IMG/VR virus record: IMGVR_UViG_3300025695_000022
Span: 1-47,690 of that record
From: a virus
DNA length: 47,690 bases
Direction: 5' to 3' (one strand)
Of this stretch, positions 3,188 to 30,486 are shown piece by piece. The notes beneath the pieces are model-generated. The model saw only the letters and a program-made list of their open reading frames with translations. It was not told where the DNA came from and searched no databases. The position numbers and the translations under genes are program-made. Numbering within the stretch: the first letter of the stretch is position 1; every line of letters starts with the position of its first letter.

Positions 3188-4480
3188 TTATATATTAGAA
3201 TAGTTACGTTCTAGTGCAGATACAAGAGCTATTGAATTTTCAATAGTACGTGCAATAGTACCTGTAGCTGAAACATATTGTGCGTTATTGAGACCGATAG
3301 CGACAAGTGTCACATCCTTATCAATTCCTGTGCCACCACCTGCCGTGTCACCGTCATAGTCATATGAGAATGTAACAGTAGCTCCTGTGATGTTACCTGT
3401 AATAGGATTACCATCAGCGTCATCAACAGTAGTTGCAGAAGAAGTACCAAAGTTATCGCTATAGTACATACGATAAATAGCTGACCCATCGCTAACTAAG
3501 TTAGAGTTAAATGATATAGTACCTGCCGCAACAAATGGGAATGTACGCTTTGTGCCTGAAGTATCTGTGAACTCTAAACGGTTGACATCTGTTGTTTGGA
3601 AGTTATCAATGTAAACACCGGTCGAGGTGACCAAAGTATCTCCTACAAACGCAAGCAATTCGTTAGCAGTCTGACCTACGGTGGTCGATAAGGTGTCTAT
3701 GGTTGTTGATTTACGTAGTAAGCTTTGGATAGCCATGTAGATATCTTCAGCAGTTTTATCGTTACCATCAATGATAACATCAAAGTTACGCGTGACACCA
3801 CCGATATCTCTTGTAGTGGCACCATAAGTTAATGTTACACCGTATGCATCAACGGTCACGTCACTTTCCGTAACCTTGAGATCACTTTGGTTGGATAGTG
3901 GGAATCGGTAAGTCTGATAAGTCATATGACTAACACCGATGTCATCTAAACTTGCACTTGCGTAAGTCTTAGCTTGCTCTCTTACAAACATCTTGAGGAA
4001 GCTACGGTAATCGAAGTCACCATTATCTGCATCGCCAAATACTTTAACTGCTTGGTTAACTGGGCCTGTTATTATGATATCAGTGGATGCACCATCTACT
4101 ACTTGTTGGTAATAGACCTGATCTGAAGCACCAAGAGAACCCAAGGTTATAAGACCTGCATACTCTTCTGCAGAAGAACCATCATCGTTCTTTACTGCAA
4201 AACCTGCACTACGGATAAGATTAACTGTTGTAGTATCAGCAGGCTTCCACCCATTGATAAACTCAAACTGCTCAGATGTGATAGCAATCATAGGGAAAGG
4301 ATAGCGGATAAGAGTGTTATCGTTTTTCCATTCTTCCTTGATAAAAGAGTATAATGTTTGTAGTGTAACACCATCTGACGAAAGGTTACCTGCTACTAAG
4401 AGTTGTATTGTTTTGTTAGCAGTGTCAAACACCACCTCTGTTGCTTGATTCAGGTTATCTGGATCTGTTATCAATGCCAT
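3188..4480 (-). CDS. Fibre-like virion protein, 430 aa
   Basis: A 430-residue protein without enzyme motifs. The N-terminal third contains the segments YSFIKEEWKND and FPMIAITSEQFEFINGW, characteristic (from memory of marine phage genomes) of a conserved structural protein family found next to tail-fibre genes. The remainder is rich in T, S, D, G and V, typical of beta-structured fibre or baseplate decoration proteins. It shares the opening MALI with the 876-aa protein just upstream, and the two are 12 bases apart with clear Shine-Dalgarno sites (AAGGAGAAACAAAA here), so they are co-transcribed. Exact position in the virion is unknown. Confidence 0.65.
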   Translation of the reverse strand: MALITDPDNLNQATEVVFDTANKTIQLLVAGNLSSDGVTLQTLYSFIKEEWKNDNTLIRYPFPMIAITSEQFEFINGWKPADTTTVNLIRSAGFAVKNDDGSSAEEYAGLITLGSLGASDQVYYQQVVDGASTDIIITGPVNQAVKVFGDADNGDFDYRSFLKMFVREQAKTYASASLDDIGVSHMTYQTYRFPLSNQSDLKVTESDVTVDAYGVTLTYGATTRDIGGVTRNFDVIIDGNDKTAEDIYMAIQSLLRKSTTIDTLSTTVGQTANELLAFVGDTLVTSTGVYIDNFQTTDVNRLEFTDTSGTKRTFPFVAAGTISFNSNLVSDGSAIYRMYYSDNFGTSSATTVDDADGNPITGNITGATVTFSYDYDGDTAGGGTGIDKDVTLVAIGLNNAQYVSATGTIARTIENSIALVSALERNYSNI

Positions 4481-4492
4481 TTTTGTTTCTCC

Positions 4493-7123
4493 TTAAGGAT
4501 TGATATATGCTCTATCCAGCTGCTGGAAGACAGTCAGAACGGAACTGTTTGGTTGGGTTGTAAAGTCAATCAACCTCGGTGAGGTTGTGTATTCTTGACT
4601 GTGAATAACTATATAATGATCCTCTGGCGTTATGAAGGTATAACCTAAAGTAACCGAGGAACCTGTTGAAGACTCTACAGCTGCTACTTCTGTATCGTCT
4701 GAAGTCTTATACATTCTAACCTCAGTGCCAGGATTAATACCCTTGATCTCCACTGTGGATTGAATACCATTAGCGTCAATAGTTTGAACACCTAAAGTTA
4801 CACCGTCTTGAGTGTAGAAGTAGTCAGTAGTTCTTATCTTATCAAACCCATTTCCAGAACTTATGATTCCTGTTGAGCTTATGAATAAACTATTAGGCGC
4901 ACCTACTAGAGTTGTCAAAATTGCACTTGCCACATCTAAGGTGTAATCTAGACTTGTTGACCCCGCTGCTGCTGGATGCCAGCTATAGATACTTCCGTTA
5001 GCTATAGTTGCCCATCCATGATAACCCTCAGCATCTGGGCTGGGTAGAGTTTGATAGACTGCGCCTGTGAAGTCAGACGCTACAAGTTCGTTAGCCGTGG
5101 CAGTTGTTAATATAGTATATTTATTGGTAGCACCAGAGGCTAGGAAGACGGTGTTGTCATCTATCCACTTCATGCTAATACCTTGCGCCCTAACATACTG
5201 ACTTGAACCGGTTAGGGTAGTATCATGTGCGCCTGATACTTCAGAAGCTGCTTGGAAGTAATCAAAACCACCTGCGGTTGACATATCCCAAGCTGTTGAA
5301 CAATAAGCTCTACGGCAATAAAAGGCGCCTGAGTTATTTTGAAACTTGTAAACGTAATGACCATCGTTAGACCATGCGTGTTGGTAACCTGTGAATTGTC
5401 CCCAACCATTACCTGAACCGCTTTGCGTTAGCGTTACATCACCTGCTGGTAAAGTGTAAGGTGTGGTTAATTGGTAGTAATACCAAGCACCAGACGAGTC
5501 ATTTTGGACAAATATGTGTTCACCGTGAGTAATACTTATGTGGCTAAAACTACCGCCTGTGCTAGGAAGTTTCTTAACGCTACCTTTAGTAGCTGTAGTT
5601 ATATCAAAAGGAGTGCTTAATGTGAAGTCAACCAAATAGCCACCACCATCTGAACCCGAGTGGAACGCCCATATCATCTTGGTTCCATCAGTGCTTATGT
5701 TTACGTCCTTCAAGAACAAACCACCCCAAGTACCATATCCAGAAAACTCTGAACTACTGAAGTTTATTACATGGTTTTCAACTAAAGAAGTAGGAGTAAC
5801 TGTTGAGCTATATCCTGAACTTGCCTCACTACCCGGAGTTTCGCCAACTGGAGTTGTGTAAGTGTTATCGAAGAATGTTACAGTGTTTGTAAAGTCTCCG
5901 AAGTAAACAGAATAACTACCGAAATCAAGTGTATCATTATCTACAGTTACGAAATCTAAAAGTGCTTCCTCTACATCCGGCGCAGCGTATTGGTAATACT
6001 TTAACATATCGTATAAATCTGCGGTAGACGTAGCTTGTGTAGTTGATTCTATTTGTGCTAAAGTCTTTGTTATATTAAGGTCATCGAACAACACGGTAGT
6101 TGCTTTTAAAGCATTAACATCTGTAGCGTCAGGAACACTGAAAGTAGTGCTCTGAGCTTGATAACCATACATGATAGTATTAACCGTATAAGAAGGCTCT
6201 GTAACTACAGTGAGTGACCCTACACCTTGTGTGAACTGTAATAACTCTGCTTCGTTAGTTGCGCCAGTTAAATCAAACTCATTCTGGCCTGATTTACTAA
6301 TAAGGGATCTAACATTTGAAACGGGATTACCTGATGTATCGAAGAACGTATTACCCCAAGTACGGTAAACTTCAAGAGGTGATGTGTCTGGTGCTGAGGT
6401 TTTCTCTATTCTTCCAATAGGATCTATTAACTTAAGTATTGAGTCCTTTCTTAGGTTGGGAGCTACGTCATTTCTTAAATTTACTACATCCACCCCAGAT
6501 ACTTTAAGACCTCTATAAGTGTAACGGTATATACCATCACCTTGTGGACTAAACTCTGGATAAGCAAAGGTCATTTCTACTTTAAGAGGTTGTGTGCCTT
6601 CAATGGAGATATCGTTAAAAGTATTACCCTCTTCACCAAACGCTAGTTGACGAGTGTCCATTTCAAATACTAGCCCATCTATGTTAGCATTTGATGCATT
6701 AAATAAAGTACGCACACCTGTACCTGGAGGAAACTGAAGTACGCAAGGTCTGCCGTATTCGTCTCTTTCAAATGTACATTCTTGAAGTGCATGAGCGTCA
6801 AATGCAGAATCTTGGTAACAAGTCCAAGTACAACCTTTAAATACGGCTTGTGACTTTCCTCCCCAACGAGGATATATAGTAGGATCACCTGAATTAAAGT
6901 AGTGATCGAATGGTAATATCTTTGCCGTATCTGTTTCTATAAAATGGCATCGAGTGAAAGTGGTAGTACATCCATCGGCTACCTTTAAGATACCACCATC
7001 TTTAGATACAATTGTGGCGTCATAGAGATCGTCTATACCACTACCAAGCTCTACGATAGCAGTTACTTCATACAGGCTATCGTGTATCTTAGTGACACCT
7101 GTTACTGTTTCAATTAATGCCAT
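4493..7123 (-). CDS. Large fibre-like protein with beta-helix start and propeller-like middle, 876 aa
   Basis: The largest protein of the leftward block. Residues about 30-210 read like a right-handed beta-helix (short repeated turns with TTFTRCHF, VFKGCTWTCY, LQECTF). Residues about 450-720 contain several repeats combining a 'TDGTKM / NDGHYV' turn with 'STPFDITTATKG' or 'STAWDMSTAGG', a pattern that resembles blades of a beta-propeller. The last ~130 residues are again beta-rich. It is probably a receptor-binding or fibre protein; the propeller suggests glycan binding, which is inference. The start is supported by AGAGAGGAATGTAA before the ATG. It lies directly after the acidic repeat protein (no spacer), implying coupled translation. 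Confidence 0.65.
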   Translation of the reverse strand: MALIETVTGVTKIHDSLYEVTAIVELGSGIDDLYDATIVSKDGGILKVADGCTTTFTRCHFIETDTAKILPFDHYFNSGDPTIYPRWGGKSQAVFKGCTWTCYQDSAFDAHALQECTFERDEYGRPCVLQFPPGTGVRTLFNASNANIDGLVFEMDTRQLAFGEEGNTFNDISIEGTQPLKVEMTFAYPEFSPQGDGIYRYTYRGLKVSGVDVVNLRNDVAPNLRKDSILKLIDPIGRIEKTSAPDTSPLEVYRTWGNTFFDTSGNPVSNVRSLISKSGQNEFDLTGATNEAELLQFTQGVGSLTVVTEPSYTVNTIMYGYQAQSTTFSVPDATDVNALKATTVLFDDLNITKTLAQIESTTQATSTADLYDMLKYYQYAAPDVEEALLDFVTVDNDTLDFGSYSVYFGDFTNTVTFFDNTYTTPVGETPGSEASSGYSSTVTPTSLVENHVINFSSSEFSGYGTWGGLFLKDVNISTDGTKMIWAFHSGSDGGGYLVDFTLSTPFDITTATKGSVKKLPSTGGSFSHISITHGEHIFVQNDSSGAWYYYQLTTPYTLPAGDVTLTQSGSGNGWGQFTGYQHAWSNDGHYVYKFQNNSGAFYCRRAYCSTAWDMSTAGGFDYFQAASEVSGAHDTTLTGSSQYVRAQGISMKWIDDNTVFLASGATNKYTILTTATANELVASDFTGAVYQTLPSPDAEGYHGWATIANGSIYSWHPAAAGSTSLDYTLDVASAILTTLVGAPNSLFISSTGIISSGNGFDKIRTTDYFYTQDGVTLGVQTIDANGIQSTVEIKGINPGTEVRMYKTSDDTEVAAVESSTGSSVTLGYTFITPEDHYIVIHSQEYTTSPRLIDFTTQPNSSVLTVFQQLDRAYINP

Positions 7124-16458: not shown

Positions 16459-19005
16459 ATGTCTAAATTCTATACATCAGTTGAAAGATTTGGTAACAAC
16501 ATCTTATGGCGTGGTTACGAGGACGGTAAACGATTCTCGTATAAAGTACCATTTAAACCTACCCTATATCTACAAACAAAAAATAATCAAGACTCTGAAT
16601 TTAAAACGTTACAAGGTAACTATCCTGTACACCCTAAGCAATTTGGTTCTATGTCTGAAGCAAAGCAATTCATTGAAGAATATGGCGACATCAGCAACTT
16701 CAAAATATATGGCAATACTAATTATGTACAGCAATTCGTACAAGAGTACTACCCAGATAACATTGAATTTGACATAGATGATATTAACATCGTATCGTTT
16801 GATATTGAGGTCGACATTAGTGATGGTTATGCTAACGTCGACGAAGCAGATAAAGAAATTACTTCTATTGCTTACAAGTCATCTAAGTCTGATAAGTATG
16901 TACTTCTTGGTCGTAAAGACTTTGATAAAACACAGACTATTACAGGTATTGCTCCTGAGAATATTATCTTCCGTAAATTTGAAACCGAAGCTGAGTTACT
17001 AAACACGTTCGTTCAAATATGGAAACATGACTATCCTGATGTTGTAACCGGATGGAACGTTGAATACTTTGATGTAATGTATATCGTTACTCGTATTAAT
17101 CGTTTACTTGGCGAATCTGTATCAAAGCAGTTATCTCCTCATGGTTATTTGAAAAAGAATACTCGTGAAATCTTTGGTAAACCGGCATCAACATATCAGA
17201 TTAATGGTATGGCTGTTATTGATTACATGGATGCGTTTAAAAAGTTTGGTTACAAATATGGTCCACAGGAAACATATAAACTTGATCATATTGCTCACGT
17301 TGTTCTTGGTGAAAAGAAATTGGATTATTCTGAATACGGTAACCTTACTGAATTATACGAAAAGAATCCACAACTATATCTTGACTATAACTTAAGAGAT
17401 ACTCAGCTTATTGAAAGAATGGAAGAAGAAACTGGTTTATTATCATTAGTAATGACGGTTGCTTATTCAGGTGGTGTTAATTACACTGATGCATTTGGTA
17501 CGGTAGGAATATGGGAATCTACTTTATATCGTAAACTGATTAAAGATAAGATTGTACCTCCACTTAAGAAAGGCCCAGGTATGGCTGCCAACGGTCTTGT
17601 TGGTGGTTATGTTAAAGATCCTGATGTAGGTATGCATCCATGGGTTGTATCGTTTGACTTGAACTCGCTATATCCACATTTGATGATGCAATATAACATG
17701 TCTCCTGAAACATATGATTATGATCGTGGTGAATATGTTACTCAAGAAATGGTATTAAATGGTGAATTTAAAAATGATGATCCTACGATATCTGTTGCTG
17801 CCAACGGTGTTTGTTTTAGTAATCAAAAGCTTGGTGTTATTCCTGAAATAATCAACGAGTACTATTCTAATCGTTCTGTTATCAAAAAAGAAATGCTTAA
17901 AGTAGAACAGTTGATTGAAACAGAAAAGGATCCAATCAAACTTAAAGAACACAAGAAACAAGCAAGCCAATTACACAATCAACAAATGGCAATCAAGATC
18001 GCAATGAACTCGTTGTATGGTGCAACTGCTAACAAATATTTCTTATACTATATTAACGAAATGGCAGAAGCAATTACAACATCAGGTCAGTTATCTATTC
18101 GTTATGCTGAAAAGTCAGTTAATGATTATATGAATAAAATACTTAAAACTGATAATGTTGACTATATCGTTTATATTGATACCGACTCTATTTACGTTAA
18201 GTTCGGTCCGTTGATTGAAAGTGTATTTGGTACAACTGACATCGATCGTTTGAAAGGTGAAGAGTTCCTCGATAAGATCTGTAGTACAAAAATTGAACAA
18301 GTCATCGAACGCGGTTACGAAAAGCTTGCTAAAGACATGGGTGCCTATCGTAATGCGATGGTAATGAAACGTGAAAAGATCACCGATCGCTCTATCTTTA
18401 TTGCTAAGAAACGTTACATTATGAATGCATTAAACAACGAAGGTGTTCATTTTGAAAAGCCTAAGATCTCTGTAACCGGTATCGAATCTGTTCGTTCTTC
18501 AACCCCTGAAGTTTGTCGTAATAAAATGAAAGATATCTTTTCTGTTATTATGAATGATGGTGAAGAGGCAACTCAGAAATTTATTGCTGATTTTAAAGAA
18601 GAGTTTGTTAAACTATCTCCTGAAGCAGTTGGTCGTAACTCAGGTACTGATAATATTGATAAGTATATAGATCGTGGAACTGGATCATATAAGAAAGGTT
18701 GTCCGATGCATGTTCGTGGTTGTATACTATATAATCGACTCTTAAATGAAAAAGGTCTATCTAAAAAGTTTGAAACGGTACAAGGCGGTGATAAGATTCG
18801 TTATGTCTATCTCAAATTGCCAAATCCTTTACGCGAAAACATTGTTTCGTTTCCTAGTGTGTTACCTGAAGATCTTGGTCTACATCAATACGTTGATTAT
18901 AACTTACAGTTTGAAAAAGTATTCCTAAGTCCAATTGAAAACATTATTGGCGCATTAGGTTGGTCTTCTGAAAAACGCGATACTCTCGATGATTTCTTTT
19001 CATAA
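16459..19005 (+). CDS. 43: DNA polymerase gp43-like (family B)
   Basis: 848 residues (T4 gp43 is 898). The 3'-5' exonuclease motif is FDIEVD with Asp115 and Glu117. The polymerase motifs are DLNSLYPHLMMQ (about residue 398), KIAMNSLYGATAN (about 513) and YIDTDSIYV (about 571), with the two catalytic aspartates. The C-terminus LDDFFS is the clamp-binding tail that T4 gp43 uses to bind gp45. The start follows TAAGGTAAACA. If the template contains modified cytosine, as the gp42-type gene implies, this enzyme incorporates hydroxymethyl-dCTP. Confidence 0.97.
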   Translation: MSKFYTSVERFGNNILWRGYEDGKRFSYKVPFKPTLYLQTKNNQDSEFKTLQGNYPVHPKQFGSMSEAKQFIEEYGDISNFKIYGNTNYVQQFVQEYYPDNIEFDIDDINIVSFDIEVDISDGYANVDEADKEITSIAYKSSKSDKYVLLGRKDFDKTQTITGIAPENIIFRKFETEAELLNTFVQIWKHDYPDVVTGWNVEYFDVMYIVTRINRLLGESVSKQLSPHGYLKKNTREIFGKPASTYQINGMAVIDYMDAFKKFGYKYGPQETYKLDHIAHVVLGEKKLDYSEYGNLTELYEKNPQLYLDYNLRDTQLIERMEEETGLLSLVMTVAYSGGVNYTDAFGTVGIWESTLYRKLIKDKIVPPLKKGPGMAANGLVGGYVKDPDVGMHPWVVSFDLNSLYPHLMMQYNMSPETYDYDRGEYVTQEMVLNGEFKNDDPTISVAANGVCFSNQKLGVIPEIINEYYSNRSVIKKEMLKVEQLIETEKDPIKLKEHKKQASQLHNQQMAIKIAMNSLYGATANKYFLYYINEMAEAITTSGQLSIRYAEKSVNDYMNKILKTDNVDYIVYIDTDSIYVKFGPLIESVFGTTDIDRLKGEEFLDKICSTKIEQVIERGYEKLAKDMGAYRNAMVMKREKITDRSIFIAKKRYIMNALNNEGVHFEKPKISVTGIESVRSSTPEVCRNKMKDIFSVIMNDGEEATQKFIADFKEEFVKLSPEAVGRNSGTDNIDKYIDRGTGSYKKGCPMHVRGCILYNRLLNEKGLSKKFETVQGGDKIRYVYLKLPNPLRENIVSFPSVLPEDLGLHQYVDYNLQFEKVFLSPIENIIGALGWSSEKRDTLDDFFS

Positions 19006-21162: not shown

Positions 21163-21699
21163 ATGATTTTAATTATTGAAGGTATGGACAATTGCGGTAA
21201 GTCCACTCTTATCAAGAACCTCCGCAAAGAATATTTTAGCAAGACTAAAACTCTTGTACACCATTCAACATCTCCTCCTAAAGTTGATGATCCTAATCTA
21301 TGGGAATTAGAACATTATGAACTGATGTTTACGAATGCAGAACATCTTGATTCCGATGGATGGGATATCATATTCGATCGTTTCCATTTAGGTGCAACTG
21401 TGTACGGTAAAAAGTATCGTAACATGGATCCTAATGAAATATTTAAAATTGATTCTTGTCATACGGATACTGTTACTATCGTGTTAACTGATACATATGA
21501 AGGTATTATGTCTCGTGATGATGGCGATAGTATTGAACAATCAAAGGAAGAATACGAAGAAACAAGGGAATCTTTTGTCCAAGCGTACAGTCAATCAAAG
21601 TCAAGAAACAGAAAATTAATCAATATATCGGAAATAGGTATTGACAAACTATACGATACTGTGATACAATATCTAAACAAAATTGAAAAGAGGTTATAA
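21163..21699 (+). CDS. P-loop deoxynucleoside monophosphate kinase-like (thymidylate kinase fold)
   Basis: A 178-residue protein starting IIEGMDNCGKSTLIKNL, a Walker A motif at residues 7-14, with the DRFHLGATVYG segment (about residue 75) that in TMP-kinase-like enzymes contacts the base and phosphate. It ends 2 bases before the dCMP hydroxymethylase gene, so it is a good candidate for phosphorylating hydroxymethyl-dCMP, the job of T4 gp1, though TMP or several dNMPs are equally possible. The start context is AAGGTATATTATG. A possible promoter for the next gene lies in its last codons. Confidence 0.8.
   Translation: MILIIEGMDNCGKSTLIKNLRKEYFSKTKTLVHHSTSPPKVDDPNLWELEHYELMFTNAEHLDSDGWDIIFDRFHLGATVYGKKYRNMDPNEIFKIDSCHTDTVTIVLTDTYEGIMSRDDGDSIEQSKEEYEETRESFVQAYSQSKSRNRKLINISEIGIDKLYDTVIQYLNKIEKRL
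21641..21670 (+). promoter_or_regulatory. Possible internal sigma70 promoter before gene 42
   Basis: TTGACA 21641-21646, 18-base spacer, TACAAT 21665-21670, inside the kinase gene 32 bases before the gene 42 ATG. It is the only one of the set with an 18-base spacer. Confidence 0.45.
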
Positions 21700-21701
21700 T
21701 T

Positions 21702-22445
21702 ATGTTAGTCGAAGATATTCGTAATACATTCCTTAACGAATACAAAAATGGAAGGTTTACTACCGATAAAACTGGTGCCAAGACAATTGAAATTATTGGT
21801 GCTTCTTTTATCGCAGATGAAAATGCAATTTTTGGAAAACCAAACCAAGAATACATTGATGCTGAAATTCAGTGGTACAATAGTAAAAGTACTAATATCG
21901 AAACTCTTGCTAAGTTCTATGGTAAGAAACCTGCTGCTTGGGCTTATTCTGCTAATGCTCATGGTGAAATCAATTCTAATTATGGTACATTGATTTTTAG
22001 TCCTGAATATAACGAACAGTACAATAACGCTCTTAGCGAATTAGTAAAGAATCCTGATAGTCGTCGTGCTGCTATGATTTATAATCGACCTTCTATATGG
22101 GTTGACTATAATGCGCAAAACAAAAACGATTTCATTTGTACTAATGCAGTTACTTATTATATTCGAGACAACCAATTGCACTGTGTAGTACAAATGAGAA
22201 GCAATGATTGTTGGGCAGGTTATCGAAATGATTACGCTTGGCAATTATACATTTTACAGCGGCTTGTTACGGATATTAATTATTGTAATATTGATAATCC
22301 TACACTCACGCTTGGTAACATCTATTGGCAAGTCCAAAATTTACATTGTTACGAAAGAAATTTCTATTTGTTAGATCACTATGATAAAACAGGTGAAATT
22401 CATATTTCTAAATCTGACTATGTAAAAAAATATGAAAATATTTAA
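21702..22445 (+). CDS. 42: Deoxycytidylate 5-hydroxymethylase (gp42-like)
   Basis: 247 residues against 246 in T4 gp42, with long matching stretches: KTIEIIGASFIADENAIFG, GEINSNYGT, NPDSRRAAMIY, FICTNAVTYYIRD (catalytic Cys) and MRSNDCWAGYRNDYAW. The RND segment keeps the Asp that in T4 gp42 replaces the thymidylate synthase Asn and sets specificity for dCMP. The enzyme uses methylene-tetrahydrofolate and water to make hydroxymethyl-dCMP, so genomic cytosine is probably replaced or partly replaced by 5-hydroxymethylcytosine. Upstream is a dNMP kinase; downstream a homing endonuclease gene interrupts the nucleotide operon. The start follows AGAGGTTATAATT. Confidence 0.93.
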   Translation: MLVEDIRNTFLNEYKNGRFTTDKTGAKTIEIIGASFIADENAIFGKPNQEYIDAEIQWYNSKSTNIETLAKFYGKKPAAWAYSANAHGEINSNYGTLIFSPEYNEQYNNALSELVKNPDSRRAAMIYNRPSIWVDYNAQNKNDFICTNAVTYYIRDNQLHCVVQMRSNDCWAGYRNDYAWQLYILQRLVTDINYCNIDNPTLTLGNIYWQVQNLHCYERNFYLLDHYDKTGEIHISKSDYVKKYENI

Positions 22446-22465
22446 CTAACGACGGTGTTTTTGAT

Positions 22466-22473
22466 TATAAATA
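22466..22473 (+). promoter_or_regulatory. T4-type late promoter (TATAAATA) for the homing endonuclease
   Basis: An exact late element 29 bases before the ATG at 22503. Late promoters directly before free-standing homing endonuclease genes are also known in T4. Confidence 0.65.
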
Positions 22474-22502
22474 AATTAAACAATATTAATCAAGGACACC
22501 TA

Positions 22503-23195
22503 ATGGGATACGTTTACAAATACACACATAAAGAAACTGGTAAATATTATATTGGAAGCCATAACGGCAACAAACAAAATTATACTGGTTCTGGCTTAAT
22601 CTGGCAACGTGCAAAAAAGAAACATGGTATAGAATCATTCGACATGGAAATATTATACGAAGGTCCAAATTATCGAGCCGAAGAAGAATTGATGTTAAAA
22701 GCTTTAGACGCGGCAAATGATGATATGTCGTATAACATGAAAAATGAAGCAATCGGTGGTTCATTCCCTGGCGAAAAAAATGGAATGTATGGTAAAACTT
22801 TAACGCCAGAACAAAGATATATGTGTGGTAGCGGTTTTAGAGGAAAGGAACGGCCGGATCATTCTGAAAAAATGAAAGGCGAAAACAATCCAATGTATGG
22901 TAAATCAGAACATGCACACGGTATTGTTGAATACTCTAAATCAAACATAGGTAAAAACTATGAAGAAATATTTGGTGAAGAACGTGCAATTGAAATTAAA
23001 AAAAGATTGAGCGAAAAACATAAAGGTGTACCGAAGCCAGGGACTTCTGCTGCCATGAAAGGTGCCGGTAATAGTTCAGCCAAACCTGTTACTATTGACG
23101 GTGTAGAATATGGTTGTATCAAAGACGCAATGGAAGCAACTGGGCTTAGTAGGTACAAAATATTGAAAAAAGTGAGGAGTTATTATAATGAGTGA
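22503..23195 (+). CDS. GIY-YIG homing endonuclease with NUMOD-type repeats (Seg-like)
   Basis: The start at 22503 follows CAAGGACACCTA; an upstream in-frame ATG at 22455 overlaps the late promoter and is rejected. The 230-residue protein opens with the GIY-YIG core YVYKYTHKETGKYYIGSH, has two NUMOD3-like boxes (KNGMYGKT and NNPMYGKS) and ends in a NUMOD1-like helix-turn-helix (SAKPVTIDGVEYGCIKDAMEATG, abbreviated). This is the layout of T4 Seg proteins, which cut related phages lacking the gene and spread by gene conversion. It sits between gene 42 and small nucleotide genes, so its target is probably in or near gene 42. It overlaps the next gene by 8 bases. Confidence 0.9.
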   Translation: MGYVYKYTHKETGKYYIGSHNGNKQNYTGSGLIWQRAKKKHGIESFDMEILYEGPNYRAEEELMLKALDAANDDMSYNMKNEAIGGSFPGEKNGMYGKTLTPEQRYMCGSGFRGKERPDHSEKMKGENNPMYGKSEHAHGIVEYSKSNIGKNYEEIFGEERAIEIKKRLSEKHKGVPKPGTSAAMKGAGNSSAKPVTIDGVEYGCIKDAMEATGLSRYKILKKVRSYYNE

Positions 23196-23325
23196 TTTAA
23201 AAATGACAAACGCAAAAGATTATATGGAAATGACAGAACAAGTAGCTGAAAACGCTGAGGCATTATATGAAGCAAACGAAGCAGTGGAGCGTTATATTGA
23301 TAGTTTAGATGAGGAGAGTGAATAA
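23188..23325 (+). CDS. Small acidic protein, 45 aa
   Basis: ATG at 23188 follows GAGGAGTTATTATA inside the end of the homing endonuclease gene, and its stop overlaps the next start by one base (TAATG). The product is a Glu/Asp-rich helix (AKDYMEMTEQVAENAEALYEANEA) without cysteines or membrane segments. The tight coupling on both sides suggests that it belonged to the operon before the endonuclease inserted. Function is unknown. Confidence 0.6.
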   Translation: MSDLKMTNAKDYMEMTEQVAENAEALYEANEAVERYIDSLDEESE

Positions 23326-23696
23326 TGCCAGGAAGCGAATATTATGATGAGATTGACAGAAGAAGTTATCAAGAGAAAGTACACAACGATTACACTGAAC
23401 GCATGAGTGAACGTATTCGTAAAATGAACGCAATTGGTTTAAACCCAAACGATACATCTGATGTTGAGTTGTTCCTTAATATGGAACGAGCAATAGAAGA
23501 TCATAAATCTGTATCGCTTGACCCTAATGTAGAGTCAGTCATTGCGAAGTATGAATCTCGTGCAAGAGTTGGTTTTGAAAAGTATGGCGTTGATACTACT
23601 CGTGATGATGTTGATTTACATGGTTGGTTAACTCATTTACAAGAAGAGTTAATGGATGCAACTATCTACATTGAACGATTAAAGAAAGATATTTAA
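23325..23696 (+). CDS. MazG-like helical protein, 123 aa
   Basis: The C-terminal half reads VGFEKYGVDTTRDDVDLHGWLTHLQEELMDATIYIERL in essence: a KYG turn, an acidic loop and the helix HLQEELMDATIYIE, which carries the ExxD-type metal ligands of short phage members of the MazG superfamily. The N-terminal half is charged and helical and looks unrelated. Such proteins may hydrolyse dNTPs. It is directly followed (1 base) by dCMP deaminase, supporting a role in pyrimidine pools. Activity and substrate are not shown by the sequence. Confidence 0.65.
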   Translation: MPGSEYYDEIDRRSYQEKVHNDYTERMSERIRKMNAIGLNPNDTSDVELFLNMERAIEDHKSVSLDPNVESVIAKYESRARVGFEKYGVDTTRDDVDLHGWLTHLQEELMDATIYIERLKKDI

Positions 23697-23697
23697 T

Positions 23698-24135
23698 ATG
23701 AATGATAAGTGGAAAACTAGATTTCTTGGGTTATCTCGAGAAATCTCCACTTGGAGTAAAGATCCAAGTAAACAAATCGGAGCAGTTATTATTGATGACC
23801 ATCTCCGTGTTCTTGCCACCGGCTATAATGGTTTTCCTAAAAACATCGAAGATCAAGAGGAACGTTTAAACGATAGAGAACTTAAGTACAAATACGTAGT
23901 CCATGCTGAAATGAATGCAATATATAATGCTACTTATAGTGGTACTGCATTACATGGATCTACTTTATTCGTATGGGGTTTACCTGTCTGTTCTGAATGC
24001 GCAAAGGGTGTTATCCAAGTCGGTATTAAACATATAGTCATGCCAAAACTAGACTTCCCTCAACGATGGATTGATTCTTTTAAACTATCTGCTTCACTCT
24101 TTGACGAAGCTGGTGTTACTTACGAATTTATTTAA
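23698..24135 (+). CDS. cd: Deoxycytidylate deaminase
   Basis: A 145-residue zinc deaminase with the ligand motifs HAEMNAI (about residue 70, catalytic Glu) and PVCSECAKG (about residue 99, two cysteines), plus the early SKDPSKQIGAVIID segment of dCMP deaminases. It converts dCMP to dUMP, balancing dTMP and dCMP supply; T4 Cd does the same and is controlled by dCTP/dTTP. It lies in the nucleotide operon that also contains the hydroxymethylase. The T4 enzyme is longer (193 aa); this one matches shorter phage versions. Confidence 0.93.
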   Translation: MNDKWKTRFLGLSREISTWSKDPSKQIGAVIIDDHLRVLATGYNGFPKNIEDQEERLNDRELKYKYVVHAEMNAIYNATYSGTALHGSTLFVWGLPVCSECAKGVIQVGIKHIVMPKLDFPQRWIDSFKLSASLFDEAGVTYEFI

Positions 24136-24143
24136 AAAAACTG

Positions 24144-24172
24144 TTGACATCTTTAAATAATTGGTGTATAAT
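24144..24172 (+). promoter_or_regulatory. Perfect consensus sigma70 promoter for the modification operon
   Basis: TTGACA 24144-24149, 17-base spacer, TATAAT 24167-24172, in the gap before the 162-aa gene. All genes from 24206 to 30486 follow it on the same strand with overlaps or gaps of at most 11 bases. Confidence 0.85.
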
Positions 24173-24205
24173 ACAGTCTACAAATTTGAAATATAAGTTT
24201 ATATT

Positions 24206-24694
24206 ATGCGATATTATAAAATTGGCAATCGCCATAAAAAATCTGTTTATGAAATAGAAAACTTCAAAGGAAACATTGACGGTGTAGATGTATTCATTGA
24301 ACACTGCATCACATGGAGAGGCGGTGAATTCATTATGCCGTTCCCCTCAAAAAGATCTGAAATAAAAGCATTCGCCGAATATATGGGATATGAAACTCTT
24401 GACGAAATGCTAACTGACTACGGTGTACGTAAGCTAGAAGAAATTATTATTCCTGGCGAAGATGTTGGTTATTTGGAATTAGATTCATTATGGGAATACG
24501 ATATGGAAAACGTATATGACCCATGCGAATATAATTGGGATATTGCATGCTCAGACGATTCGGTAATTAAAAAGATCGAAAAGTATTTAGAAAATCATAA
24601 TCTCTGGGATTTGACAAACGATTATGAACTAGATACCACTTTGCATACATACCATATAGAAGGAGGAATATATTATGATGAATACGAATATTAA
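24206..24694 (+). CDS. Acidic protein of unknown function, 162 aa
   Basis: No family is recognised. The protein is strongly acidic and rich in Tyr and Trp (for example ELDSLWEYDMENVYDPCEYNWD and the end YYDEYEY), with a mixed alpha/beta look. It is the first gene after a perfect early promoter and overlaps the nucleotidyltransferase gene by 20 bases. Small acidic early phage proteins often inhibit host DNA-binding enzymes by mimicking DNA; that is a possibility here, not a finding. The Shine-Dalgarno is weak; the context is AGTTTATATTATG. Confidence 0.6.
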   Translation: MRYYKIGNRHKKSVYEIENFKGNIDGVDVFIEHCITWRGGEFIMPFPSKRSEIKAFAEYMGYETLDEMLTDYGVRKLEEIIIPGEDVGYLELDSLWEYDMENVYDPCEYNWDIACSDDSVIKKIEKYLENHNLWDLTNDYELDTTLHTYHIEGGIYYDEYEY

Positions 24695-26204
24695 TTTAGT
24701 TATACCAGCCGCAGGTTCAGCGACAAGATTAAGACCTTTATCAAAGAACACATCAAAGATTATGGTACGTGTAAATGGTAAACCATGTCTTGACTATATT
24801 GTAGAACAAGCTCGTAAAGTTGCTAACGTTAAAGAGATAGTTATCGTAGATGGAGAGTTTGACGATATAAGAGAATACTGCGCTATTCGCCATCCTGATA
24901 TTAAACTAGTAAAACAAGGTTCTCTTAATGGGCCTAGGGATGCAATTAAGGTTGGTATAAACGAATTAGATAATCCTGAACTACCTCTTGCTGTATGGTT
25001 AGGCGATGCTATTATTCTTGAAAACGATATGCCATTAGGAACAGATTTTTTATTATCAAAAGATGTAGTTGACCAAACCGCTTGGTGTATGTGGGATGGA
25101 GATTCATTCTATAATAAACCGTCTCATAAAGTTGAAAACGCAGTCGCATTGGTTGGCCTATATTCTTTTAAGAATGGCGGTAGAGCAAAAGAATCATTTA
25201 ATGCAGTTGACGATTACGATATATCAGCAGCTCTTGAATATTACGCAGATTCATACGATAGAATTATAACAAATTTGTGGTATGATATTGGAGAACTAAG
25301 TACTTATTATAAAACGTGTGCTGAGCTACTCAATTTAAAATCACGTGAATTTAATAACATGGAGTACAACCCTGACCTTGGTACTATTCGTAAATCTCCT
25401 AACTATCATGACCACGCAAGTGTAACTACTTTATATAACGAAAAGAACTGGTATAAAAATTTAAATCAAGAACAGTATATGTTTGTTCCAAAAGTACTTG
25501 AAACAACAAACGATCTAGTTATGTCATACGAATCTGGTACACTACTATCTGATTTGATGTTATATGAAAATCTATCAGTTTCAGCTTGGGAATATATCAT
25601 AGATAAAGTATTAAAAGTTAAAACTAATTATTTTAATAATCGATGTGAAGACTTGGAATTTATTGATGGATTTCCTTATATGGCAGAAGGAATATGGGTT
25701 GATAAAACTCAAGAACGTTTGAAAAATACGCCAATTCTTCTTGCTGAAACAAAAAGCAAATTAGAAAACATTGCATTCGCAGTATGTAAAAAGACTAGGC
25801 CTATTTCAGGAATGCATGGCGATTTACATTTTGGAAACATTCTTTACAATCAACAGACTGACCAAATAAAACTATTTGACCCTCGTGGTAATTATGGACA
25901 ATCTAATATTTCGTCTCAATACTCGCACATCGGTATACTAGGCGATGACTTATATGATTATTGTAAATTAGCTCATGACGTATATCATGGTTATAATGCG
26001 ATGGTTTCAAATGTTAAACATAATGAAGAAGTAAAAGAAATATTCGTAGCTAAACTAAAAGAACATAATCTCCCTGTTGATTTGATATTAGCTGGTGGAT
26101 TATTATTGCTTGCTACTTGTATACCGTTACACTACGATGATGAAGAAAGACAAACCCGATTTGCTAACTATGTGGAGAATAATGTTGAAAAGTATAGTGT
26201 TTGA
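24675..26204 (+). CDS. Nucleotidyltransferase-kinase fusion (NDP-sugar or NDP-alcohol synthesis)
   Basis: Two domains. Residues 1-~215 are a sugar-1-phosphate-type nucleotidyltransferase: the opening VIPAAGSATRLRPLS (variant of GxGTRL), KIMVRVNGKP and VWLGDAI. Residues ~230-509 resemble aminoglycoside/choline-type kinases: the catalytic loop SGMHGDLHFGNILY (about residue 378) and the metal-binding segment KLFDPRGNYG (about residue 403). One protein could thus phosphorylate a sugar or alcohol and activate it with an NTP. Such fusions or pairs occur in capsule and LPS decoration loci. With the following phosphatase and glycosyltransferase it probably makes the donor for DNA modification. The start follows AAGGAGGAATATATT; it overlaps both neighbours. 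Confidence 0.75.
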   Translation: MMNTNINLVIPAAGSATRLRPLSKNTSKIMVRVNGKPCLDYIVEQARKVANVKEIVIVDGEFDDIREYCAIRHPDIKLVKQGSLNGPRDAIKVGINELDNPELPLAVWLGDAIILENDMPLGTDFLLSKDVVDQTAWCMWDGDSFYNKPSHKVENAVALVGLYSFKNGGRAKESFNAVDDYDISAALEYYADSYDRIITNLWYDIGELSTYYKTCAELLNLKSREFNNMEYNPDLGTIRKSPNYHDHASVTTLYNEKNWYKNLNQEQYMFVPKVLETTNDLVMSYESGTLLSDLMLYENLSVSAWEYIIDKVLKVKTNYFNNRCEDLEFIDGFPYMAEGIWVDKTQERLKNTPILLAETKSKLENIAFAVCKKTRPISGMHGDLHFGNILYNQQTDQIKLFDPRGNYGQSNISSQYSHIGILGDDLYDYCKLAHDVYHGYNAMVSNVKHNEEVKEIFVAKLKEHNLPVDLILAGGLLLLATCIPLHYDDEERQTRFANYVENNVEKYSV

Positions 26205-26541
26205 TTTAGATGATACAATTTGTAAGCCTAACCATGAGTATACGGATACTTACAATAAATATTCTCGTGCCGAACCAATAAATGAAGTAATTAATAAAAT
26301 AAATCTATTGCATGATTTAGGATACTATGTTATAATTAGTACAGCAAGAAGAATGTTAACTCACGACGGTGACATAAATAAAATTATCGAAGACGTCGGC
26401 GATGTAACTGAAGCTTGGTTAGATGAGCACGGTGTCAATTACGATAACATTATTTTTGGTAAACCTTATTCGTCTACTTACTATATTGACGATAAAGCAA
26501 TGAATGTTGACGATTTTTTAGAATGGAATTTTGATGAATGA
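26182..26541 (+). CDS. HAD-superfamily phosphatase (capsule-biosynthesis type)
   Basis: The start at 26182 (TGGAGAATA upstream) gives a 119-residue protein opening MLKSIVFDLDDTIC, with the nucleophile Asp8 and Asp10. Motif II is IISTAR, and motif III/IV is FGKPYSSTYYIDDKAMN. It lacks a large cap, like small HAD proteins in bacterial capsule loci. An ATG further upstream (26095) lies deep in the previous gene and is rejected. It overlaps the fusion gene by 23 bases and the glycosyltransferase by 4 (ATGA), so it belongs to the same pathway; it may dephosphorylate a sugar-phosphate intermediate. Confidence 0.82.
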   Translation: MLKSIVFDLDDTICKPNHEYTDTYNKYSRAEPINEVINKINLLHDLGYYVIISTARRMLTHDGDINKIIEDVGDVTEAWLDEHGVNYDNIIFGKPYSSTYYIDDKAMNVDDFLEWNFDE

Positions 26542-27773
26542 AACATATAGCATTTTGTAAAATAGGCAAGAGCATAAAATTTGCTAGTGCCTTTAGTCCT
26601 ATCGGTGGCGATAATGAAGCTCCTAGCTTATTACGATTATTAGCCAACAATAATCCAGATATTACTTTTCATATCGTAGGGCGTTCTGACTTTTACAAAC
26701 TCAGTCAAAAAGAACGCATTAATCTATTTAATTATGACAATGTCGTAGATTCTTTTGAAGGAAAAAGAGGAGCTGCTAATGAAGACACGGTTATTGATTA
26801 TTTTAATGATTTAGGTTTTCAGCCTGACGCATGTATCTCTATGGTTGGTCAAGTCGGTACTGTTACTATACCTAATCGCATTCAGCAAGTAAAGAATCCT
26901 GATCTTACTGCTTCTGTTATTGACATGACTAAAAACTATTCTACCCCAATTACTAAATGGTGGAATGAAAATACTAATATGAAACTTGTTGAAATTATCA
27001 ATGATCCTCGGTATGTTTTAAATCAATCTCGTGACATTATTATTAATCCTACTGTTTCTTTAGGTCAATACGATTATACGTACAAGAAAAGTACAATGTT
27101 ATCATACGAAAATCAAGAACGCGTTGACCACGAAATTCATGCAAGTTATGCAGGTGTTGAACGTATCTTCCAATATGATCGTAAGTTCGTAGAAGCAAGA
27201 GCTGACGGTCGTGATACTAACTTTATGATTGTATTGAACGAAGGATCTCCATCTCGATATAAAACATTAAATCAGTGGGTTCTAAATAAAATCGATGATG
27301 TTGAGATTTATGGCAAATGGGAACATCCTGAAACTGAAAACGATCCTCGCTTCAAAGGTTCTATGAAATTAGAAGAACTACAGGAAAAGTTAAAGAGTGT
27401 AAGAGCTACCTTTATTATTCCAATTGCACCTGGGTGGGTAACATCTAAATATATTGAAATGATTAATGCAGGAGTTATTCCATTCTTCCACGAATCGTAC
27501 GATACACAAGACAATACAAAAGTTCCATCTTGGTTACGTATTAAAACAGCAGACCAATTTGCGCAAGCTTTGGAATTAGTAGCTAACGATGAAGTCTATA
27601 ATAAAATGATTAAAGAACTTCAAGATACTTTTTGTACTAAAGAATATTATGATGGTACCGCTTTAAATGATATCGTTATGAGTAATACTATTGAAGATTA
27701 TGTTAGACCAGATTTAAGTAAATATGAAAAAGCAGAAATTGAACCGGAAGGCCTCGAAAGCTTTTTTGGATAA
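26538..27773 (+). CDS. GT-B-type glycosyltransferase, DNA glucosyl/arabinosyltransferase-like
   Basis: A 411-residue protein whose C-terminal half has the layout of T4 beta-glucosyltransferase and related DNA glycosyltransferases: VEIYGKWE, then DPRFKGSMKLEELQEKL, FIIPIAPGWVTSKYIEMINAGVIPFFHESYD and a final helical tail. The segment ending in GWVTSKYIEMINAG corresponds to the donor-binding part. The N-terminal half is the acceptor domain. It is coupled to the HAD gene and to the MTase homologue. Given gene 42 and the donor-synthesis genes, the simplest reading is transfer of a sugar to hydroxymethylcytosine. The resemblance is by motif order, not alignment, and the sugar is unknown. Confidence 0.65.
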   Translation: MKHIAFCKIGKSIKFASAFSPIGGDNEAPSLLRLLANNNPDITFHIVGRSDFYKLSQKERINLFNYDNVVDSFEGKRGAANEDTVIDYFNDLGFQPDACISMVGQVGTVTIPNRIQQVKNPDLTASVIDMTKNYSTPITKWWNENTNMKLVEIINDPRYVLNQSRDIIINPTVSLGQYDYTYKKSTMLSYENQERVDHEIHASYAGVERIFQYDRKFVEARADGRDTNFMIVLNEGSPSRYKTLNQWVLNKIDDVEIYGKWEHPETENDPRFKGSMKLEELQEKLKSVRATFIIPIAPGWVTSKYIEMINAGVIPFFHESYDTQDNTKVPSWLRIKTADQFAQALELVANDEVYNKMIKELQDTFCTKEYYDGTALNDIVMSNTIEDYVRPDLSKYEKAEIEPEGLESFFG

Positions 27774-27784
27774 TGGGAGTTAAA

Positions 27785-28996
27785 ATGAGTGAAATTAGTT
27801 GGGCACCACTTATACCGTTAATCGGTGGACAGATGTTAGGAGCAGAGAAGGCGTTTGGTACCCCGCCTAAAGCAATCTATTCATATAAAGGTTTTGAGGA
27901 TAACGACAGTCACTATGTCAATTATCAACAAAATACTTTAGGTAGAGATGTTCCTTACGTATTATTGGATGAAGCCGATAAAATACAACAAGTGGATGTA
28001 GTGTCAGGTACACCACCTTGCGCTGCGTTGTCTCAATTGAATACAGGTAAATCCGCCGAAGCAAAAGGTGCAGGTTGTGCCAAGAACGAATGGATGTATA
28101 AAGTATTCGAAGATGGTATTGATATTCTTGGTGCTAAAGTGGTAATCGTAGAGAATGCGCCTGCGTTATTTACTAACAAAGGTCAAGCAGTTGCGAATAA
28201 ACTATTTGAAATTTGCCAAGAACGTGGATTCTCTTTATCTTTATATAAAACATCTACTAAATATCATGGTATTCCGCAAGCAAGAGATCGTACATTTGCG
28301 ATTGGTTGGCGTTCGGAAACTGCACCTGTAATGAATTGGTATAAGCGTGATAGAAAAGATTTCGCTGAATATCTACAGGAAGTGCCAGAAGGTACTTTAC
28401 ACCATGACATGGTAATCAATGCAAAATTACCAGAAGAACCATATTTTGCTTTCTTAAAGCATAAGTTCAATACAGATCCACGTGGATTGCTAATAGAATC
28501 TGGCCATAAGACAACGTTTAACTACGTAAATAAAAATGGTTGGCTTAAAGAAGCAAACGAATGGTTCCACGAAATTGGCCATGAAAAAGGTATTAAGTTA
28601 TCTGACCATGCAATTAAAAAATTCTCAGATGGTCTTGGTATATGGGATGGTTCAGTTCACGTATTCCCTGATGTTATGAACGCGGTAATTGGTCGTAATA
28701 TGGCAGATACTATTCATCCAACTGAAGATCGTTCTTTAACTATTCGCGAAGCAATGCATATGATGGGATTCCCTCATGACTTTGAATTGTTACGAGCAAA
28801 ACAAAAGACGAATCATATTGCACAGAATGTACCTGTCGTAACATCAAGAGATGTTCACTCTGAAATTTTAAAGTTCATGAAAAACGAATTGAAACTATCA
28901 GATACCAACTATCTTAGACAAAATAACCATAAGGAAGATACTAACGTAGATCCTATTGGTAAACAAGAATTTAGTACACTTGAGGAATTTATATAA
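27785..28996 (+). CDS. Divergent C5-cytosine DNA methyltransferase homologue
   Basis: The start at 27785 has GGGAG five bases upstream; the ATG at 27773 overlaps the previous stop. In the 403-residue product the catalytic motif IV is SGTPPCAALSQ (Cys79), motif VI is ENA (Glu123) instead of ENV, motif VIII is QARDR (165-169), and motifs IX and X are SLTIREAMHMMGFP and NVPVVTSRDV. Motif I, normally FxGxGG, reads IPLIGG, losing the Phe and first Gly that help bind SAM. So the base-attack machinery is intact but cofactor binding looks altered. It lies directly after a DNA glycosyltransferase-like gene. It may methylate residual cytosine or do other C5 chemistry on hydroxymethylcytosine. Confidence 0.8.
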   Translation: MSEISWAPLIPLIGGQMLGAEKAFGTPPKAIYSYKGFEDNDSHYVNYQQNTLGRDVPYVLLDEADKIQQVDVVSGTPPCAALSQLNTGKSAEAKGAGCAKNEWMYKVFEDGIDILGAKVVIVENAPALFTNKGQAVANKLFEICQERGFSLSLYKTSTKYHGIPQARDRTFAIGWRSETAPVMNWYKRDRKDFAEYLQEVPEGTLHHDMVINAKLPEEPYFAFLKHKFNTDPRGLLIESGHKTTFNYVNKNGWLKEANEWFHEIGHEKGIKLSDHAIKKFSDGLGIWDGSVHVFPDVMNAVIGRNMADTIHPTEDRSLTIREAMHMMGFPHDFELLRAKQKTNHIAQNVPVVTSRDVHSEILKFMKNELKLSDTNYLRQNNHKEDTNVDPIGKQEFSTLEEFI

Positions 28997-29626
28997 ATGG
29001 CCTATCAATTAATGATGGACTTTGAAACAATGGGAAAAGACTCTATGACATGCGCAGCGGTTGATTGTGCTGTCATGGTGTTTGACAACGAACGTTTCTT
29101 ATCAAATAATCCATACACCCTAAATGATATTGACTTAGTCGTTAAATTGAAATTATCAGTTGCAGACCAAGTAAAAAATTATGGCTGTGTGGTTGAAGAG
29201 GATACTCTAAAGTTTTGGCAGCAACAGTCAAAAGAAGTTAGAGCACATGTTAAACCGACAGAAAATGATTTAACTGTGAAAGAATTTGTTGACAAGTTCT
29301 ATCAACTGTTGTATAATAACAGAGTAAACTATTGGTGGTCAAGATCAAATACTTTTGACCCTATTATATTAGAAAGATTATTTAAGTACGTAGATCGCAA
29401 AAAAGACAAAGACAATGTTCTGAAGTTTTGGCAAGTGAGAGATACACGTACTTATATAGACGCCAAATTTGATTTTAGTTTAAAACAAAATGGATTCGTT
29501 CCTATTGCAGATGAAAAGCTATGGGAACAAAAATTCAAGTTACATGACAGTGCGTGGGATGTGTTAGCAGATGTATTACGTCTACAAGCAATTGCTCGAG
29601 CTGAAAACGATCTACCTTTAATTTAG
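28997..29626 (+). CDS. dexA: Exonuclease A-like (DexA, DEDD family)
   Basis: A 209-residue DnaQ-like 3'-5' exonuclease: ExoI motif MMDFETMG (residues 6-13), ExoII in YWWSRSNTFDPIILERLF (about residue 114) and ExoIII in HDSAWDVLADVLRLQ (about residue 184), which is the T4 DexA pattern (227 aa). T4 DexA degrades single-stranded DNA and RNA ends. It starts right after the MTase homologue stop. Its place in the modification operon may be coincidental, or it may trim host or unmodified DNA. Confidence 0.85.
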   Translation: MAYQLMMDFETMGKDSMTCAAVDCAVMVFDNERFLSNNPYTLNDIDLVVKLKLSVADQVKNYGCVVEEDTLKFWQQQSKEVRAHVKPTENDLTVKEFVDKFYQLLYNNRVNYWWSRSNTFDPIILERLFKYVDRKKDKDNVLKFWQVRDTRTYIDAKFDFSLKQNGFVPIADEKLWEQKFKLHDSAWDVLADVLRLQAIARAENDLPLI

Positions 29627-29637
29627 GAAATTATATT

Positions 29638-30486
29638 ATGCAAATAACAACCGAACAACTTAGAGAATATTCTCTTTTTGTTGGTACACCAATGTATGGT
29701 GGTAACTGCTCAGGGATGTATACTAAATCGTGTACTGATTTATCTCAAATCTGCGCAGCAAATGGAATAACGTTAAAGTACTACTTCTTATTCAATGAAA
29801 GTTTAATACAGAGAGCTCGTAATTATATCGTTGATGAATTTTTACGCTCAGACTGTACTCATCTATTATTCATTGATGCAGATATTGGATTTAACGCAAA
29901 AGATGCTCTATCATTATTAGGTTTACAAACAATGGAACCAGAAAAATATGATATCATTACAGGTCCATATCCTAAGAAAGCAATTGCGTGGGAAAAGGTA
30001 GCAAAAGCGGCTAATGCAGGATACGGTAATGAAAATCCATTCCAATTAGAATCGTTTACTTCTGATTTCGTATTTAATCCTGTAGAAGGTAATGGTACAT
30101 TCGCGTTAACTGAACCGGTTGAAGTAAAAGAAGCTGGTACTGGATTCATGCTAATCCCTCGAGCTACATTAGTCAAATACATGGAAGCCTATCCAGAATT
30201 ATCATACAAGCCAGATCATATTCGTACTGATAACTTTGATGGCACTCGTGAAATTACTGCATTCTTTGATTGTATCATCGATCCTAAAACTAAGAGATAC
30301 TTATCTGAAGACTACTTCTTCTGTCAAAAAGCAAGAGAAGCAAATATGTCTGTATGGATGTGTCCTTGGATGCAATTGAACCACGTAGGAACATATACGT
30401 TTAGAGGTAACATGGCTGCTATCGGCCAACTTGGTGTAACTGCAACGGCAGATGATTCATCCAAGAAAAAAAGTTATAAAAAATGA
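29638..30486 (+). CDS. GT-A-type glycosyltransferase-like protein, 282 aa
   Basis: The protein opens LFVGTPMYGGNC and has the strand-turn HLLFIDADIGF (about residue 78), the DxD metal/donor motif of GT-A enzymes, then DIITGPYPKKAI and a late acidic segment LSEDYFFCQKAREANM matching the ED motif of inverting family-2-like enzymes. Similar proteins are common in T4-like cyanophages (recalled). It closes the operon started at 24144 and could add a second sugar to a modified base or modify host glycans or virion proteins. The start context is AGGAAATTATATTATG. Acceptor unknown. Confidence 0.7.
   Translation: MQITTEQLREYSLFVGTPMYGGNCSGMYTKSCTDLSQICAANGITLKYYFLFNESLIQRARNYIVDEFLRSDCTHLLFIDADIGFNAKDALSLLGLQTMEPEKYDIITGPYPKKAIAWEKVAKAANAGYGNENPFQLESFTSDFVFNPVEGNGTFALTEPVEVKEAGTGFMLIPRATLVKYMEAYPELSYKPDHIRTDNFDGTREITAFFDCIIDPKTKRYLSEDYFFCQKAREANMSVWMCPWMQLNHVGTYTFRGNMAAIGQLGVTATADDSSKKKSYKK

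Follow-up and report, generated by a model that had tools for sequence, protein, structure and literature searches.

The virus record IMGVR_UViG_3300025695_000022 (IMG/VR), a fragment of 47,690 bp, was analysed in full (the window), and statements on absent genes hold for this fragment only. It belongs to a T4-like phage and carries, between the polymerase gene (16459-19005) and the sliding clamp gene (30550), a cassette that probably makes glycosylated 5-hydroxymethylcytosine (hmC) with a sugar donor synthesised by the phage itself. Topoisomerase, gp55-, gp47-, gp46-, gp43-, gp45- and gp44-like genes and baseplate genes lie around it. An earlier sequence-only reading of this DNA had proposed a new cytosine hypermodification pathway here; the genes that it named were all recovered at or near the positions that it gave, together with its perfect sigma-70 promoter at 24144. 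The features of the cassette are as follows.

21163..21699, + strand: thymidylate-kinase-like P-loop kinase, candidate kinase for 5-hydroxymethyl-dCMP (hm-dCMP) (Pfam Thymidylate_kin 5e-6, 0.1 bit under the cut-off; phrog_761 1e-13)
21702..22445, + strand: dCMP hydroxymethylase of the T4 gp42 type (52% identity to T4 gp42, active site, tree)
23698..24135, + strand: dCMP deaminase, accessory nucleotide metabolism (Pfam dCMP_cyt_deam_1 7e-16, phrog_174 6e-39)
24144..24172, + strand: sigma-70-type promoter match TTGACA-N17-TATAAT (12/12 consensus)
24675..26204, + strand: nucleotidyltransferase-kinase fusion, predicted donor synthesis (motifs, Pfam, AlphaFold model)
about 26182..26541, + strand: small HAD phosphatase, predicted donor synthesis (TIGR01689, phrog_1238)
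26538..27773, + strand: putative DNA glycosyltransferase, modelled fold like that of T4 beta-glucosyltransferase (BGT) (AlphaFold model)
27773..28996, + strand: C5-cytosine-methyltransferase homologue with altered S-adenosylmethionine (SAM) motif (Pfam DNA_methylase 8e-21)

The genes for the fusion, the HAD phosphatase, the glycosyltransferase, the methyltransferase homologue and the exonuclease DexA are consecutive and overlap or abut. The perfect sigma-70 match at 24144 is not the sole one, with others found at 29289 and 30487.

The modified base

The product of the gene at 21702 is 52% identical to T4 gp42 over 99% of its length (PDB 1b49, E 2e-76), and in the alignment with T4 the equivalents of Cys148 (catalytic), Asp179 (dCMP-selecting) and Glu60 are kept (DFICTN, RSNDCWAGYRND, YIDAEIQWY). 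In the tree it falls inside the T4 gp42 clade with a support of 100/99, and the RB69-type enzymes form a separate clade with the same support. RB69-type phages, long believed to hold hydroxymethylcytosine, produce 5-hydroxy-dCMP via a distant gp42 homologue, and RB69 DNA carries arabinose on 5-hydroxy-dC (PMC13390438). Since the donor module of the window, described below, is homologous to that of RB69, 5-hydroxycytosine was weighed as the base of this phage too, and was rejected on the active site and the tree: the window enzyme is only ~25% identical to the RB69-type enzymes (RB69 ORF048 included), and the Glu60 equivalent that it retains is missing from the RB69-type sequences in the alignment. 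We therefore regard 5-hydroxycytosine as very improbable. By sequence, the window enzyme belongs to the genuine T4-type dCMP hydroxymethylases and not to the RB69-type 5-hydroxy-dCMP enzymes, and from the T4-type active site, the T4 clade and Glu60 we infer that the modified base is hydroxymethylcytosine, whose synthesis by a gp42-type enzyme had already been proposed in the sequence-only reading.

The adjoining kinase gene has counterparts beside or near a thymidylate-synthase-like (TS-like) gene in RB69 (p045) and in Enterococcus phage 9183; its substrate would be hm-dCMP. In cyanophage S-TIM54, a gene annotated as 'ThyA' (L086 5129-5971, - strand) encodes Asp at the site held by Asn in thymidylate synthases (RSNDMATGVPLD), and is probably a misannotated dCMP-type enzyme.

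Sugar donor and glycosyltransferase

The fusion joins a sugar-1-phosphate nucleotidyltransferase (residues ~1-240; Pfam NTP_transferase 1e-11) to an APH/choline-kinase-like kinase (residues ~245-509) with the ABC1/APH motifs HGDLHFGN...DPRG. Its AlphaFold model has a predicted local distance difference test (pLDDT) score of 92, and the N-terminal domain adopts the GalU/RmlA/GlmU fold with Z scores up to 24.7. The aminoglycoside/choline-kinase fold includes anomeric sugar kinases too; with this and the GalU/RmlA/GlmU-like nucleotidyltransferase half, the kinase gives no support to the earlier suggestion of an uncommon donor sugar. The HAD phosphatase has TIGR01689 (EcbF/BcbF capsule phosphatase) as its best family (2e-22; phrog_1238 1e-21), is 31% identical to RB69 p051, and accompanies the fusion in 73 of 74 distinct fusion loci. 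Together, phosphatase, kinase and nucleotidyltransferase correspond to the activities of the MupP-AmgK-MurU route, in which a sugar phosphate is dephosphorylated, its anomeric carbon phosphorylated and a nucleotide added (PMC5371407), and by analogy the same logic was adopted for the window module. No SIS-domain arabinose-5-phosphate isomerase turned up among the family matches of the cassette genes in the window fragment or in the relatives searched, and RB69 alone among 16 records had a SIS match at the Pfam cut-off; arabinose or another pentose is among several candidates for the donor sugar.

The 411-residue glycosyltransferase has no Pfam, PHROGs or NCBIfam family match. Its AlphaFold model, built from 29 sequences and confident (pLDDT 86), retrieved T4 BGT entries at ranks 1-6 with Foldseek and 1-4 with VIA-align (Z 21.8, 3.8 Å, 311 residues), ahead of bacterial GT-B enzymes (Z 18.7), T4 alpha-glucosyltransferase (17.6) and the recently solved phage HY126 glycosyltransferase (17.3). 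In the phage, the protein most likely glycosylates hmC residues of the DNA, and the modelled fold agrees with the BGT-like enzyme of the sequence-only reading. RB69 p050 was tried as a homologue, with no match.

Linkage of these genes was followed across relatives after deduplication to 56 distinct glycosyltransferase loci and 74 distinct fusion loci. A gp42/TS-like gene was present in each of the 21 distinct glycosyltransferase loci that extend at least 4 kb upstream, in line with the hydroxymethylcytosine context of the earlier proposal and at odds with a set of genes occurring mostly without gene 42 and near surface-glycan genes. Where at least 2.5 kb is available upstream of the glycosyltransferase (35 loci), a single donor module of two possible kinds is always present, never both and never neither: the fusion with its HAD phosphatase in 15, and in 20 a HAD-kinase fusion followed by an RfaE2-type nucleotidyltransferase of the heptose-1-phosphate (RfaE domain II) family (TIGR02199 1e-20). 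Among the HAD-kinase loci, the RfaE2 gene was found in 28/28 and the nucleotidyltransferase-kinase fusion in 0/28. The two modules are non-homologous, and because two unrelated modules supply the same three activities, the glycosyltransferase presumably depends on a donor missing from the host. This co-occurrence and the module itself support the phage-made activated donor of the sequence-only reading. In 11 of the 28 HAD-kinase loci, a 304-residue protein without known family (L053 3832-4746) is encoded between the HAD-kinase module and the glycosyltransferase; its DDD motif is suggestive of a further GT-A enzyme.

The fusion loci extend this picture beyond gp42. A TS-like enzyme is encoded in 55 of the 74 and a TET/JBP dioxygenase in five, with both together in none; the 14 loci having neither end close upstream, and each of the 37 loci whose flanks are long on both sides encodes one of the two, a TS-like hydroxymethylase or a TET/JBP dioxygenase. 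Fusion loci without gp42 had been considered as counter-examples, and proved to carry TET/JBP genes. TET/JBP dioxygenases were assigned by Pfam in L135, L159 and L163 (6e-16 to 2e-23) and the TET-associated glycosyltransferase (TAGT) in L135 alone (2e-8), with homologues of the latter in the other TET loci; homologues of both also occur in the remaining TET loci, among them that of Stenotrophomonas phage DLP6. As all long-flank loci have the gp42-type or the TET route, the donor module follows a hydroxymethylated pyrimidine, whichever route makes the base, and not phage lineage or surface-glycan genes. The same architecture is found in Pseudoalteromonas phage XG4 (vB_Psh_XG4), Enterococcus phage 9183 and jumbo-phage contigs; XG4 encodes gp42, HAD phosphatase, fusion, glycosyltransferase, a second GT-B enzyme and the C5-methyltransferase homologue. 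Fusion and HAD phosphatase constitute a portable sugar-activating module. Donor modules beside TET/JBP and TAGT-like genes, with no gp42, lie at L135 5799-9512, L159 5973-9963 and L163 5946-9470, and in L003. No PF00145 methyltransferase was found in DLP6 (168 kb), so the substrate of its TET enzyme may be thymine and not methylcytosine.

In the proposed pathway, the gp42-type enzyme would, by homology, turn dCMP into hm-dCMP, which the adjoining kinase would phosphorylate for the polymerase to incorporate. The HAD phosphatase would strip the terminal phosphate from a host sugar phosphate, the kinase half of the fusion would phosphorylate the anomeric carbon, and the other half would add the nucleotide in the manner of MupP-AmgK-MurU, giving a nucleoside diphosphate sugar (NDP-sugar); the order of these steps and the sugar are both putative. 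The BGT-fold enzyme would then move the sugar from the NDP-sugar onto hmC in DNA.

An unlikely variant of this scheme is that hmC is glucosylated with host UDP-glucose as in T4, and that the HAD/fusion donor serves another purpose, for example a later second sugar. The nearest fold is indeed that of T4 BGT, a UDP-glucose enzyme, and some relatives have an extra GT-B gene in their cassettes (XG4 4238-5344, L014, L184); however, the window cassette has no second GT-B, and pairing with a donor module in 35 of 35 loci would be odd for a glycosyltransferase using a host donor. It is highly improbable that the HAD phosphatase, fusion and glycosyltransferase modify a surface glycan of host or phage. 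The capsule-phosphatase subfamily of the HAD enzyme and the lipopolysaccharide-heptose family of the alternative nucleotidyltransferase would fit such a role, and glycosyltransferase genes of pelagimyophages are usually interpreted in this way (PMC7029224), but the constant linkage to gp42-like or TET genes in T4-like, jumbo and Enterococcus phages and the fold match to DNA glucosyltransferases speak for DNA as the target.

Several points weigh against glycosylation of hmC with a phage-made donor. Sequence comparison (hhalign) ties the glycosyltransferase to T4 BGT very weakly (E 0.01, 128 columns, probability 4%); the BGT assignment rests on the predicted fold. The structural matches listed for the fusion all fall on its nucleotidyltransferase domain; the kinase domain is not among them, for which reason we infer its anomeric activity. 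The loci share ancestry, so the linkage counts are not independent trials. The DNA modification is predicted here from genes and modelled structures, and as the record is a fragment, a glycosyltransferase using a host donor may lie elsewhere in the genome.

The C5-methyltransferase homologue and neighbouring genes

The C5-methyltransferase homologue is the most unusual component of the cassette and a partner of gp42-type hydroxymethylases: it is encoded in 31 of the 32 long-flank fusion loci with a TS-like enzyme, the exception being phage 9183, and in none of the five TET loci. For motif analysis, 161 copies (not all from distinct contigs) were collected via the glycosyltransferase and the fusion, independently of the motifs; counts from a motif-patterned C5-methyltransferase search were excluded, as the patterns contained those motifs. 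The catalytic Cys/Glu/Arg motifs (C..LS, ENAP, QxRxR) are present in 161/161 copies, with ENV reading ENA. SAM motif I, FxGxG, occurs in 0/161; PL[IVL]GG stands in its place in 160/161, and a conserved SYxxFxxND is found near motif II in 133/161. The S-TIM54 genome carries a PLxGG C5-methyltransferase homologue as well.

The enzyme would act on cytosine or hmC in the DNA of gp42-route phages, and two readings of its motifs are likeliest: SAM is still the cofactor and binds in an unusual pocket, or the enzyme has a different cofactor or works without any. There is not quite an even chance that the protein works as a normal SAM-dependent DNA methyltransferase, guarding residual cytosines with a SAM pocket that has diverged but still functions. 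Pfam and NCBIfam both assign it to the C5-methyltransferase family, and the GG of the glycine loop remains; yet FxGxG is missing from every copy, the motif II region is swapped for a different conserved sequence, most C5 positions in hmC DNA are already occupied, and the gene is linked to the gp42 route, not to the TET route. More tentatively, the protein may be a SAM-independent hmC enzyme, which would flip hmC, attack C6 with the conserved Cys, and add, remove or exchange a group at the hydroxymethyl position. Such an enzyme is chemically possible, because C5-methyltransferases in vitro couple thiols to hmC and add formaldehyde to C (PMC7176277). If so, it would give gp42-type phages a second, possibly sequence-specific layer of hypermodification, and would be the natural counterpart of the atypical laboratory reactions of C5-methyltransferases. 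A homologue lacking the SAM motif and almost always accompanying gp42-type enzymes makes it directly testable whether SAM-independent hmC chemistry, so far seen only in the laboratory, also occurs in nature.

The remaining features of the region are the following.

22455-23195: homing endonuclease of GIY-YIG/NUMOD3 type that follows the gp42 gene directly and breaks up the region
24206-24694: 162-residue protein without family match, first in the operon after the promoter
28997-29626: exonuclease DexA (phrog_255 1e-28)
29638-30486: phrog_1574 protein, putative GT-A (phrog_1574 7e-58)

Among the relatives searched, a homologue of the 162-residue protein was seen solely in a near-identical contig (L005/L131). 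DexA, which the sequence-only reading had placed in the pathway series, was set aside as a neighbour, being an exonuclease that does not adjoin the cassette in many relatives. The same reading took a second glycosyltransferase, the phrog_1574 protein, as raising the chance of a disaccharide. Its putative GT-A nature is suggested by a DAD motif (LLFIDADIGF) and the annotation of one homologue. The gene adjoins the sliding-clamp gene or precedes it by a few genes in Caulobacter phage Cr30, Sinorhizobium phiM12, Ochrobactrum OC, Rhizobium RHph_I1_18 and DLP6. The TS-family genes of these phages are ThyA-like only (bit scores 320 and above) or absent, and no homologue of the phrog_1574 gene was found in XG4, RB69 or 9183. 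A pathway role was rejected on this clamp-side location in phages without an hmC synthase, and the gene lends no support to a disaccharide. In phage 9183, galactofuranosyltransferase models match ORF050 (L002 13823-14794; 2e-31), which closely follows the cassette and is perhaps a second DNA glycosyltransferase.

Comparison with known systems

Glycosylation of hmC is known from T4. Phage-encoded donor synthesis, which the sequence-only reading had thought new, has precedents: RB69-type phages have homologous fusion, HAD and kinase genes, and phage-made donors for DNA sugars have already been inferred for RB69 and Thanatos (PMC6024577, PMC8056088, PMC12838424). As far as the literature consulted shows, what is new is the pairing of hmC synthesis of the T4 type with both a donor module and a diverged transferase of the BGT fold, along with the two interchangeable donor modules, the occurrence of the module in TET-route phages too and the gp42-linked methyltransferase homologue. 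A study by Lee et al. (2025) reportedly describes glycosylated 5-hydroxycytosine in diverse viruses, and may overlap with these points. The loci suggest that T4-like, jumbo and Enterococcus phages widely share a modular design, with swappable makers of hydroxymethyl-pyrimidine (gp42-type or TET), sugar-activating modules and DNA glycosyltransferases. This modularity predicts DNA sugars not yet described, and such sugars bear on resistance against restriction and CRISPR nucleases.

T4 shares with the window a hydroxymethylase of the same clade and a beta-glucosyltransferase of the same fold, but uses host UDP-glucose and has neither a donor module beside these genes nor a C5-methyltransferase homologue. 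The arabinosylation cluster of RB69/Mosigvirus (p045, p048, p051, p052-053, p055) likewise lies beside the polymerase gene and comprises a thymidylate-kinase-like gene, a TS-superfamily dCMP enzyme, a small HAD and the fusion; it differs in its 5-hydroxy-dCMP, its SIS arabinose-5-phosphate isomerase, its other transferases and the lack of a C5-methyltransferase homologue. Enterococcus phage 9183 (ORF043-048), an unrelated phage, has in the same order a thymidylate kinase, a TS-like enzyme in which the Asp of dCMP-type enzymes is present, a HAD protein, the fusion (27%) and a member of the same glycosyltransferase family (27%); its TS-like enzyme is nearest to the CMP hydroxymethylase MilA, and it has no C5-methyltransferase. 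Phages with TET/JBP and TAGT share the HAD/fusion module (fusion 58-67% identical in viral contigs), but oxidise a methyl group in DNA and use a TAGT-type transferase, and no C5-methyltransferase homologue was found in them. The MupP-AmgK-MurU route (PMC5371407) also leads through a HAD phosphatase, an anomeric sugar kinase and a nucleotidyltransferase to an NDP-sugar; there the three are separate genes that serve cell-wall recycling of N-acetylmuramic acid, with weak sequence similarity to the window module (MurU model E 4e-5).

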